NCBI GenBank assembly: GCA_016931175.1
Contig: JAFGFH010000021.1
Span: 1 to 42,556 of the forward strand
DNA: 42,556 bases
Source: Nanobdellota archaeon
Lineage (GTDB): Archaea > Nanobdellota > Nanobdellia > Tiddalikarchaeales > Tiddalikarchaeaceae
Reading direction: 5' to 3'
Shown here: piece after piece, positions 15,336 to 18,839 of the stretch
How positions within the stretch are numbered: position 1 is the stretch's first letter
How the letters are laid out: the number at the start of each line of letters is the position of its first letter
Notes under the pieces: model-generated
Seen by the model: only the letters and a program-made list of their open reading frames with translations
The model's database searches: none
Told to the model about the DNA's origin: nothing
Made by a program: the position numbers and the translations under genes

Positions 15336-17723
15336 ATGAAATGTCCTTACTGTTCAAGTTCAAAATTAAAAGTTATAGACAAGAGAGCTGTAGCAGATAA
15401 TAAAAACTGGCGCAGGAGAGAGTGTTTAAACTGCAGCAGGAGGTTCACAACTTACGAGAACGTTGAAAACGTTAAAATAATTGTTACTAAAAAAGACGGT
15501 TCCAGCAGGCCTTTTGACAAGAACAAGATAGTTAAGAGCATAATCAAAGCCAGGAGCAAGAAGACACTGCCTGACGAGCAGATAGAAGTAATAGTTGATG
15601 ACATAGAGCGCAGAATAATAGCTGAAGGCAAAGATGAAGTAACCAGCACTGAAATAGGAGAATTAGTTCTTGAACAATTAGAAAAAGTAGACCCAGTAGC
15701 TTACATAAGGTTCGCAAGCGTTTTCAGGCAATTCAATGACATAACTGGTTTCCAGAGAGAACTGGCAAAACTTAAGGTAAAGAAAAGGGTTGAATCAGTA
15801 ACTGACACGACTGACCTCTTACTGCAAGTAACGAGCAGCAACGAGGAATTAAACGACTGGGACAGGTCAATGATAGTTAAAGCATTAATGAAAGAGACTA
15901 CGCTGAGCGAGTGGCAGGCAACAGAGATAGCAGAAGAGGTTGAAAAGAAACTATTATCATCTAAGCTGGCACAAGTCAACACTAACTTAATCAGGGAGCT
16001 TGTTAACAACGAACTTGTTCTTAAGGGTTTCACTGACCAGTTAACGAGCCAGAAACTGATAGGAATGCCTGTGTATAATTTGAAGCAGATACTCTTCAGC
16101 AGAAGCAAGGACAATTCTAACATAAAGAACAATAATCCTGAAGCAGTGAACTTAGCAATAGCAGACAACAGCTTGAAACAATTCGCGTTAGACAACGTGT
16201 TCAGCAAAGAAGTAGCGCAGGCTCACCTTACAGGAGCCATACACCTGCATAACTTAGGATTCATAACAAGAGTTTACTGCAGCGCGCACAGCGTTGAGTA
16301 CATAAAAAAGTACGGAATCCAGGACATACTCACAGTTAATACTACAGCAAAGCCGGCAAGCCACGCAGCCACTTTAACAGGCCACATTCTCACTTTTCTT
16401 ACAGCAATGCAGACTTACTACGCTGGAGCGTTAGGGTTCAGCTACGTGAATATTGCATACGCGCCTTTTCTTGTAGGAAAGAGTTACAAGCAGATGCTTC
16501 AAGAAGCTCAGAACTTAATCTTTGCAGTAGCGCAGGGAGCTTTCAGCTGGGGAGGCCAAACCCGCTTCGTTGACTTCAACGTCCACTTAGGAGTCCCTTC
16601 ATACTTAAGAGACGTTCCAGCAATAGGGCCTAAAGGCCAGTATACAGGCAAGACTTACAAGGATTATGAGAAAGAGGCTCAAATGTTTGCCAAAGCAATG
16701 CTTGAGGTTTGGAAGGAAGGTGACAGCCAGGGCAAAGTATTCACCTTCCCTAAATGTGATTTGCACATAAGCAAGGAATCGTTCACAGACCCTGGTCAGA
16801 AAGAATTATTATTATACGCTTGCGAGGTAGCGTCTCATAACGGCAGCCCTTACTTCATCTTTGACCGCGACGAGGTAGTCTTGTCAGCGTGCTGCAGGTT
16901 AAGAACAAGAATCAATGACGATTACGTCTTAAAGCATCCTGAGAGTATGAGGTTCTGCGGTTTCCAGGTAGTCACGCTTAACCTGCCCCAAGCAGCTTAC
17001 CGCGCAGGCAGGAATAATATAGAAGGATGCATTTCAGAGATTAACAAGACAATGGACTTAATACTCAAGGCGCATCTTGAAAAGAAAGCTTTCACTAAGC
17101 AGATAATGAATAAGCCTGGAACACCGTTGTGGCAGATAGGCAAGACGGCAATGGACGGCAGGCCTTACGTTGACCTGGAAGACTGCACTTACATCTTCGG
17201 ACTCATAGGATTGAACGAGTGCGTGAATTACTTAACAGGGGAAGCATTGCATGACAGCGACGACGCTTACAAGTTAGGGCTTAAAATCGTTTCAGCCATG
17301 TATTTGCGCATTAAAGAGTACGAGAAGAGGTACAACTTGAAATTCAGCCTTGAAGAGACGCCTGCAGAAGGAGCCAGTTTAAGGTTCGCGAAACTCGACC
17401 TTAAAAAATTCAAAGAGGCTAAGGATTACGTCAGGGGTAATATTGAAACTGGAGAGGTTTATTACACTAACAGTATACACTTCGAAGCTGACGCGCCAGT
17501 AGACATATTCGAGCGTATAGAGAAGCAGGGCAAGTTTAACAGCATAATCGAGAGCGGTTCTATAACACACGTATTCACGGGAGAACAAAGACCTGATGCT
17601 GAAGCGATATTTTCTTTAATTAAGAAGACTTGGGATAATACTCAGAGTGCTCAATTAACAATAAGTCCTGAGTTTACTGTCTGCAATGATTGCGGCAGGA
17701 TAAGCGAGGGTTACGGGAGGTGA
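15336..17723 (+). CDS. nrdD: Anaerobic (class III) ribonucleoside-triphosphate reductase with N-terminal NrdR fusion; C-terminal glycyl-radical segment missing from this ORF
   Basis: N-terminus MKCPYCSSSKLKVIDKRAV...RRRECLNCSRRFTTYE...PFDKNKIVKSI...VDPVAYIRFASVFRQF is NrdR-like (Zn-ribbon + ATP-cone); body has NrdD motifs (AHLTGAIHLHNLG, SHNGSPYFIFDRDEV, SACCRLR). ORF ends ...SPEFTVCNDCGRISEGYGR* before the glycyl-radical site. Confidence 0.93.
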   Translation: MKCPYCSSSKLKVIDKRAVADNKNWRRRECLNCSRRFTTYENVENVKIIVTKKDGSSRPFDKNKIVKSIIKARSKKTLPDEQIEVIVDDIERRIIAEGKDEVTSTEIGELVLEQLEKVDPVAYIRFASVFRQFNDITGFQRELAKLKVKKRVESVTDTTDLLLQVTSSNEELNDWDRSMIVKALMKETTLSEWQATEIAEEVEKKLLSSKLAQVNTNLIRELVNNELVLKGFTDQLTSQKLIGMPVYNLKQILFSRSKDNSNIKNNNPEAVNLAIADNSLKQFALDNVFSKEVAQAHLTGAIHLHNLGFITRVYCSAHSVEYIKKYGIQDILTVNTTAKPASHAATLTGHILTFLTAMQTYYAGALGFSYVNIAYAPFLVGKSYKQMLQEAQNLIFAVAQGAFSWGGQTRFVDFNVHLGVPSYLRDVPAIGPKGQYTGKTYKDYEKEAQMFAKAMLEVWKEGDSQGKVFTFPKCDLHISKESFTDPGQKELLLYACEVASHNGSPYFIFDRDEVVLSACCRLRTRINDDYVLKHPESMRFCGFQVVTLNLPQAAYRAGRNNIEGCISEINKTMDLILKAHLEKKAFTKQIMNKPGTPLWQIGKTAMDGRPYVDLEDCTYIFGLIGLNECVNYLTGEALHDSDDAYKLGLKIVSAMYLRIKEYEKRYNLKFSLEETPAEGASLRFAKLDLKKFKEAKDYVRGNIETGEVYYTNSIHFEADAPVDIFERIEKQGKFNSIIESGSITHVFTGEQRPDAEAIFSLIKKTWDNTQSAQLTISPEFTVCNDCGRISEGYGR

Positions 17724-17731
17724 AAGGGTTA

Positions 17732-17920
17732 ATGGGAGAGGCGAGATGCAAACATTGTAATAGTAAGAACGTATATGGAATAAGCAGGGTAGTAGGCTAT
17801 TTCAGCAAGATAAATGATTGGAACAAGAGCAAGAGTGCAGAGTTCAAAGACAGGCAGAAAGGCAATTACAAGGTTCCAGCTGAACAAGCAGGTGAAGAGA
17901 AGGTGGCAGTTAAATGCTAG
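17732..17920 (+). CDS. Separate C-terminal glycyl-radical domain of NrdD (second half of zinc knuckle + RVVGYF radical loop)
   Basis: MGEARCKHCNSKNVYGISRVVGYFSKINDWNKSKSAEFKDRQ matches the usual NrdD C-terminus (CPxCG...YSRVxGYxxPVxxWNxGKxxEFxxR). SD GGAGGTGA at 17716-17723, 8 nt before the ATG. The ORF track start at 17690 is upstream of this likely start. Confidence 0.88.
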   Translation: MGEARCKHCNSKNVYGISRVVGYFSKINDWNKSKSAEFKDRQKGNYKVPAEQAGEEKVAVKC

Positions 17921-18162
17921 TTAAAATATTCGTTCAAGAGAATTGCCCTAATTGTCCTCAATCAAAGGAGTTAGGCAAGCAGTTATTAAACGACGGAGTC
18001 AGTGTTGAATTCCACGACGTTCGCACAACTGAAGGCTTAGCGGAGAGCTTAATGTTTGACGTTTTAAGCACGCCAAGCACTGTAATATTAAAAGAGAATA
18101 AAGTAGTTCAATCATTCTTAGGCGCCACGCCTAAAATAGAAGAGGTGAAGAAGTGGTTATAG
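17914..18162 (+). CDS. Glutaredoxin/NrdH-like thioredoxin-fold protein
   Basis: KIFVQENCPNCPQSKELGKQLL...STPSTVILKENKVVQSFLG: CxxC redox motif and cis-Pro TPS. Confidence 0.88.
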   Translation: MLVKIFVQENCPNCPQSKELGKQLLNDGVSVEFHDVRTTEGLAESLMFDVLSTPSTVILKENKVVQSFLGATPKIEEVKKWL

Positions 18163-18839
18163 TTAAGGGAATAATAGAGAGCAGTTTCATAGATTATCCT
18201 GGAAAGATATCACTAGTAGTTTTCACTGCAGGGTGCAACTTTCACTGCCACTACTGTCATAATCCTGAACTAGTGAATCCTGAACCTCCATTCATGGCAG
18301 AAGATAAAGTGTTTAAACTAATAGATAACAAGAAGGAATGGATTGACGGAGTAGTAATCACAGGAGGAGAACCAACCCTTCACCAGGACTTGCCTCTTTT
18401 CATCAAGAAGATAAAAGAGAGAGGGCTTTTAGTAAAACTTGACACTAACGGTTCAAACCCTGAAATGATTAAAGAATTAACGGATTCTAAAATAGTTGAT
18501 TACTTAGCTATGGATGTTAAAGCTCCTTTGGAAAAGTACGAATCCGTTACTCAAATTAAGGTTAAGACGGAAGACTTGAAGAAGAGCATACAATTAATTA
18601 AAGAGTCAGGTATTGATTACGAGTTCAGAACTACCATACTGCCTTCATTATTGAACGAGAAGGATTTGGTAAAGATAGGATACTTATTGGAAGGAAGCAA
18701 ACTCTTAGTATTGCAGAGTTTCAGGAATGAGGTAACACTGGACGAGTCTTATAACACTCAGCCGAGTTATTTAAAGCCAGAGATGGAGCACTTCGTGCGC
18801 GTTCTTAAACCTTATTTTAAAAAAGTAATTTCAAGATAA
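18153..18839 (+). CDS. nrdG: Anaerobic ribonucleotide reductase activating enzyme (radical SAM)
   Basis: SSFIDYPGKISLVVFTAGCNFHCHYCHNPEL (CxxxCxxC), VVITGGEPTLH; GTG start with GAGGTGA SD. Confidence 0.92.
   Translation: MVIVKGIIESSFIDYPGKISLVVFTAGCNFHCHYCHNPELVNPEPPFMAEDKVFKLIDNKKEWIDGVVITGGEPTLHQDLPLFIKKIKERGLLVKLDTNGSNPEMIKELTDSKIVDYLAMDVKAPLEKYESVTQIKVKTEDLKKSIQLIKESGIDYEFRTTILPSLLNEKDLVKIGYLLEGSKLLVLQSFRNEVTLDESYNTQPSYLKPEMEHFVRVLKPYFKKVISR

Follow-up and report, generated by a model that had tools for sequence, protein, structure and literature searches.

The window, a stretch of 42,556 nucleotides, comes from a Nanobdellota archaeon (genome G000), a draft assembly of 887 kb in 26 contigs that is 97% complete. 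It contains an operon, with all features on the + strand, in which the core is followed by the radical subunit, thioredoxin and NrdG. The core gene (15,336-17,723, stop codon TGA at 17,721-17,723) encodes an NrdR-NrdD protein of 795 residues, a class III ribonucleotide reductase (RNR) without a glycyl-radical loop. Pfam assigns Zn_ribbon_NrdR to residues 1-41, an ATP-cone to 49-135 and NRDD (PF13597, E 3.5e-115) to 259-790. Among the TIGRFAM models, TIGR00244 (NrdR) covers residues 1-146 (E 5e-46) and TIGR02487 (NrdD) scores above its cut-off. The NrdR part (zinc ribbon and ATP cone, 15,336-15,773) is thus a regulator fused to the N-terminus of its target enzyme; full-length matches in several other families suggest that this fusion also exists elsewhere in the class.

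The finger loop of the core carries the double cysteine of SACCRL (C519-C520, 16,890-16,895), which is invariant in the alignment of the split relatives and, from the role of these residues in class III enzymes (PMC9669993), is the expected thiyl-radical site. The first CxxC of the zinc knuckle, CNDC (C783/C786, 17,682-17,693), is also on the core chain, which ends just after this region with FTVCNDCGRISEGYGR, or CNDCGRISEGYGR, before its stop. A Shine-Dalgarno (SD) sequence, GGAGGTGA (17,716-17,723), overlaps the stop codon and ends 8 nt before the ATG at 17,732. From this ATG a small ORF of 62 residues (17,732-17,920), in the -1 frame relative to nrdD, reads MGEARCKHCNSKNVYGISRVVGYFSKINDWNKSKSAEFKDRQKGNY... 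and contains the second CxxC, CKHC (17,747-17,758), and a SRVVGY loop. Both zinc pairs were read in the sequence and in the relatives. Gly22 of RVVGY (codon 17,795-17,797), where the radical is expected, is invariant in the small-ORF alignment, and the loop around it lines up with the glycyl loop in P. copri NrdD (PDB 8p23). The stop codon of the small ORF overlaps the ATG (ATGCTAG) of a thioredoxin/glutaredoxin-like gene (17,914-18,162, Pfam Thioredoxin_3), which in turn overlaps the gene of an NrdG2-type radical-SAM activase (18,153-18,839, TIGR02495, E 3e-60).

The small ORF matches Pfam NRDD with an E-value of 2e-10. PF13597 is the sole Pfam match both for it and for two of the stand-alone copies described below; PF01228 is not matched. 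Of the 562 positions of the NRDD model, the big chain accounts for 1-517 and the small chain for 521-561, i.e. the two ORFs together form one NrdD, cut once. Since the C-terminal glycyl-radical domain is on an ORF of its own and not in the same chain as the core, we file the enzyme as a two-chain variant of class III RNR.

Direct reading of the junction bears out the original prediction, made from the letters of this DNA, that nrdD ends after the first CxxC, that the second CxxC and the radical loop lie on a separate ORF, and that the SD contains the nrdD stop codon. The prediction also held that joining the chains restores the canonical spacing. Laid end to end, the chains have 14 residues between the CxxC pairs in the window and 14-24 in five split relatives, compared with 10-13 in fused relatives, so the spacing is only near canonical. 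Reading the intervening bases as a small inserted cassette in a gene that is otherwise canonical fits only loosely. The window scan gave no Rfam match and no tRNA, and hence no known intron or RNA element; an intein is unsupported, as the gap at the junction is 8 nt. The same genome also contains an uninterrupted NrdD (contig 20, L002:1363-3417), followed by its own thioredoxin-like gene, so the split enzyme is not necessarily essential there.

The junction in relatives and the initiation signals of the small ORF

We read the junction in all the close relatives that encode the window-type NrdD to its end: G001 (same genus), G002 and G003 (same family) and G011 (another family). G004 was left out because a contig end cuts its nrdD. 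In all four, the core stops after CxDCGxxSxGYxR (a few codons later in G002) and a short ORF with CxxC and RVVG[YF] follows. The relative frame is -1 in G000 and G001, and +1 in G002, whose nrdD runs past the next ATG before it stops; in G003 and G011 the two ORFs share a frame with only stops between them. That the break recurs in five genomes, with stops and frames that differ, goes far beyond chance. Of the relatives with an uninterrupted gene, G020 (L007) is the nearest, and split and fused forms thus adjoin in the tree. Among the relatives the core is 62-75% identical over its full length, and purifying selection on the small ORF is strong (pN 0.17-0.27 vs pS 0.56-1.05). We regard it as practically certain that the split in the window is real.

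As a separate observation, G002 (contig CABMEV010000003.1, L004:3058-3060) has an in-frame TGA at the first cysteine of SACCRL, where its relatives have TGC or TGT. This may be a selenocysteine, an inactivation or a base error; G002 also has a class I/II RNR.

Frames, gaps and start sites were compared over 66 split loci, with an SD match defined as at least 5 nt and ATGs inside the cores as controls. The frames of the small ORF relative to the core are distributed 21/22/23 (chi-square p 0.96), and the gap between the two has a median of 9 nt and a range of -71 to 281 nt; neither a conserved relative frame nor a shift or stop site was found over these loci. The start codon is ATG in 62 of the 66. 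An SD precedes the small ORF in 34 of 39 loci of the window's own phylum, compared with 6.4% of the control ATGs, and in 6/6 and 4/4 loci of two other archaeal phyla. For the archaea overall the count is 44/49, vs about 7% of the controls (6-9% by group), and in the bacterial phylum only 6/17. In G145, three ORFs lie between the core and the radical ORF, in a cluster that also contains thioredoxin-like and NrdG-like genes. Random frames together with an SD and an ATG fit independent initiation, and do not fit a programmed shift or readthrough. The original prediction of an evolved, translationally coupled split, and not an error, is thereby supported: what the close relatives carry is the split, in all three frames, with SD sites and under purifying selection, and not an uninterrupted nrdD.

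Distribution, position of the cut and stand-alone copies

Four phyla, in which nearly all the genomes sampled are metagenome-assembled, were searched with profiles of the radical domain. The domain lies in a short ORF (<150 aa) in 49/98 genomes of the window's own phylum, and in 10/52, 15/45 and 29/47 genomes of the phyla whose records are labelled Euryarchaeota, Aenigmatarchaeota and Patescibacteria, respectively; the denominators are the genomes with the domain in a short or a long ORF. The Patescibacteria-labelled phylum is bacterial, as DnaA is found in 10 of its 11 tested genomes. None of the tested genomes of the Aenigmatarchaeota-labelled phylum has DnaA, and of those of the Euryarchaeota-labelled phylum only G503, which may be contaminated. 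Most short cases were read base by base. The majority have an NrdD core directly upstream, and the remainder are stand-alone copies. The small ORF, 62 residues in the window, has 40-130 elsewhere. The split recurs mainly in small-genome lineages, and at most loci core and radical ORF are adjacent, with one copy of each.

Two split subfamilies can be told apart by the position of the cut. Type A, that of the window, is cut between the two CxxC pairs, so that the core keeps the first and the small chain has the second (10 loci). In type B, the core mostly carries C..H and CPxC and the small chain a single cysteine (40 loci), or the cut falls within the second pair (13 loci). A third form of about 100 aa has a conserved N-terminal half and TRVTGFFSKVxSWNKGKxGELKER, and no CxxC. 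It adjoins a core that keeps both zinc pairs in G608 (L199), and is alone in genomes with a fused NrdD (G503, G493, G562 and the WOR-1 bacterium G478). Modelled alone, its N-terminal half is predicted by AlphaFold with moderate confidence and its radical loop as disordered (pLDDT <50), and the model was therefore not used for fold searches. Two fused NrdDs extend past the radical domain: that of G080 (L012:10-3105) with a glutaredoxin/thioredoxin-like extension (QFGKEGCHTCKNL), and that of G144 (L190) with a similarly long one.

A tree of 98 cores, calculated without the radical domain, requires 11 changes between split and fused forms, nine of them forced by well-supported branches; a smaller core tree requires 10 changes, seven forced. 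The changes may have gone in either direction, and some may be refusions. That the cuts keep falling near one domain boundary suggests that separation is tolerated or favoured at this site. Residues 676-739 of P. copri NrdD, its radical domain, are mobile and are believed to shift as one rigid body (PMC11226230).

The number of radical domains is in some genomes higher than that of cores: three with one core in G363 and G380, and two with one core in G365, G122, G422 and G401. G503, G493, G562 and G478 have stand-alone copies besides a fused NrdD, a combination that resembles PFL and YfiD of E. coli. Several stand-alone copies lie beside genes of the stress response. That of G401 adjoins a FUR-family regulator and three rubrerythrins; that of G122 glutaredoxin, peroxiredoxin and ferritin; that of G608 rubrerythrin and desulfoferrodoxin; that of G489 has a rubrerythrin 9 nt downstream; and that of G562 a prismane-family gene nearby. 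In G478, which has two full-length NrdDs besides the stand-alone radical ORF, the copy (L241:4710-5003) is located between prismane/Hcp and feoAB (FeoA, FeoB), with Rrf2 nearby. This copy was checked by its sequence (GGRNVDQITRVTGYFSRVSGWNKGKLGELNQR) as a possible chance match, and was kept. About 6 of roughly 16 stand-alone copies have such neighbours (binomial tail 2e-5 to 3e-3 if 4-10% of all genes are assumed to lie near such functions); these genomes have 0-6 rubrerythrin matches each. About 10 of the 16 are without an obvious stress neighbour and lie beside ribosomal-protein, GTPase and unrelated genes. By eye, the stand-alone type-A radical ORFs on L134 (G365) and L136 (G325) are near apparent ribosomal protein genes; G325 yielded no NrdD core of any kind.

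Of the 40 genomes whose radical ORF is split off or separate, 31 lack a class I/II large subunit. One of them, G041, is a single contig rated 100% complete; its RNR genes comprise one core and one separate radical ORF, and none of class I/II was detected. There, unless deoxynucleotides are scavenged, the two-chain enzyme very likely serves as the working RNR.

The AlphaFold2 model of the G011 chain, read through the junction, has a pLDDT of 83, and the junction (<50) is among its few low-confidence stretches. Foldseek places class III RNRs first (8p2s, E 2e-31; T4 1h7a), with NrdR at the N-terminus. As this model ties the chains together, it says nothing about the association of free chains.

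Proposed assembly, possible exchange and alternative explanations

According to our best reading, the locus encodes, with a probability of roughly 0.8, a class III RNR that is made as two polypeptides; its radical subunit could be replaced after oxygen damage. The core chain would provide the NrdR zinc ribbon, the ATP cone, the ten-stranded barrel, the finger-loop cysteines and the first zinc pair, and the glycyl-radical subunit the second zinc pair and the radical loop. Both would be translated independently from one operon, coupled by the SD that overlaps the core stop. We infer that the small chain then docks on the core, where the loop would enter the barrel and NrdG would place the radical on the glycine. 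In type A the zinc site would join the chains, as the original prediction held; this is consistent with the pairs being divided in the 10 type-A loci. Finally, oxygen would cleave the chain at the radical glycine, so that the small chain alone is lost and a fresh copy may take its place. This last step is the least certain of all, and we consider the odds on it even.

The components are those of characterised class III enzymes. The NrdDs of P. copri (8p23), T. maritima (4u3e) and phage T4 (1h7a) share the ATP cone, the barrel core, the finger-loop cysteines, the zinc pairs, the RVxGY loop and the NrdG partner. In the characterised enzymes, however, the glycyl-radical domain is part of the same chain (PMC11226230, PMC9669993), whereas in the window it is a second polypeptide, and NrdR is fused N-terminally. 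RNRs of two polypeptides from one operon are known from the class II NrdJa-NrdJb of Pseudomonas, described in 2015 as the only split RNR in non-viral organisms (PMC4520616). That enzyme is B12-dependent, and its second chain performs disulfide exchange and does not carry the radical. Interrupted nrdD and other RNR genes also occur in phages, with introns, inteins, homing endonucleases or unexplained fragmentation; in the parts of that source consulted, no conserved separate radical domain is described (PMC3653736). Our viral scan, for which a single profile spanning every type proved too variable, gave one weak relative and three phage records; in the record inspected, that of the Oceanotoga phage, the loop is within the annotated class III RNR gene. 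The open-access full-text literature on split or separate class III RNRs contained no cellular split NrdD, and a report elsewhere is possible.

The closest parallel to an exchange is found in pyruvate formate-lyase (PFL). Oxygen cleaves glycyl-radical enzymes at the glycine, and GrcA/YfiD and T4 Y06I, small stand-alone proteins with a glycyl-radical loop, repair PFL by replacing its C-terminus (PMC8683613). The stand-alone NrdD-type domains near oxygen-stress genes are similar to these. They differ in being of the PF13597 type and, at most loci, the obligate partner of a loop-less core and not an extra spare; the small ORF of the window itself adjoins a core without a radical domain of its own. 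Copy number, the genomes with fused plus stand-alone forms and the stress neighbours point to a replaceable cofactor. They favour the analogy to YfiD/GrcA drawn in the original prediction, which stays an inference. In our judgement the chances are even that class III RNR in many small-genome archaea and bacteria works with exchangeable glycyl-radical subunits, some of them stand-alone and linked to stress, which would enter a radical-less core once oxygen or nitrosative damage has occurred.

The strongest competitor is a neutral gene fission, in which the split is real and functional but the chains are permanently assembled, with no role in exchange or repair. It has somewhat less than an even chance; this estimate overlaps with that for the best reading, because both have two chains and differ on exchange only. 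The concentration of splits in small-genome lineages speaks for it, as do the split genes known in Nanoarchaeota (PMC3655853) and the single adjacent pair of core and radical ORF at most loci. Against it stand the gains or losses, nine or more, that unrelated subfamilies have undergone, always with the break near the same domain boundary, and the surplus radical ORFs of some genomes, some of them beside oxygen-stress genes.

It is improbable that the split copy of the window is a decaying duplicate whose work is done by the uninterrupted NrdD of contig 20. The presence of that full-length gene is in its favour, but the core is conserved over its full length in the relatives, the small ORF is under purifying selection, the operon is intact with thioredoxin and NrdG, and in other genomes no RNR besides the split one was found. 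Still less probable is a programmed frameshift, bypassing or stop-codon readthrough that yields one conventional chain. The shared frames of G003 and G011 would allow it, but not the random frames and variable gaps of the 66 loci, the proper SD and ATG before the second ORF in archaea, the three intervening ORFs of G145 or the copies on other contigs. An error of sequencing or assembly in a normal nrdD, conceivable in a draft of 26 contigs, is excluded by the relatives: the break recurs in these independent genomes, where sequences, stops and frames differ.

The separate radical form occurs in roughly one of every two NrdD-bearing genomes sampled from the phylum of the window, and a bacterial phylum has it as well. 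ORFs of 40-60 aa are easily missed in annotation, and such cores may therefore look broken. Spare parts for enzymes other than PFL have so far only been suggested (PMC8683613), and the present loci are named candidates for this open question. They also offer a natural route to studying the radical domain as a separate molecule. If the exchange is true, class III RNR would join pyruvate formate-lyase as a glycyl-radical enzyme served by spare parts.
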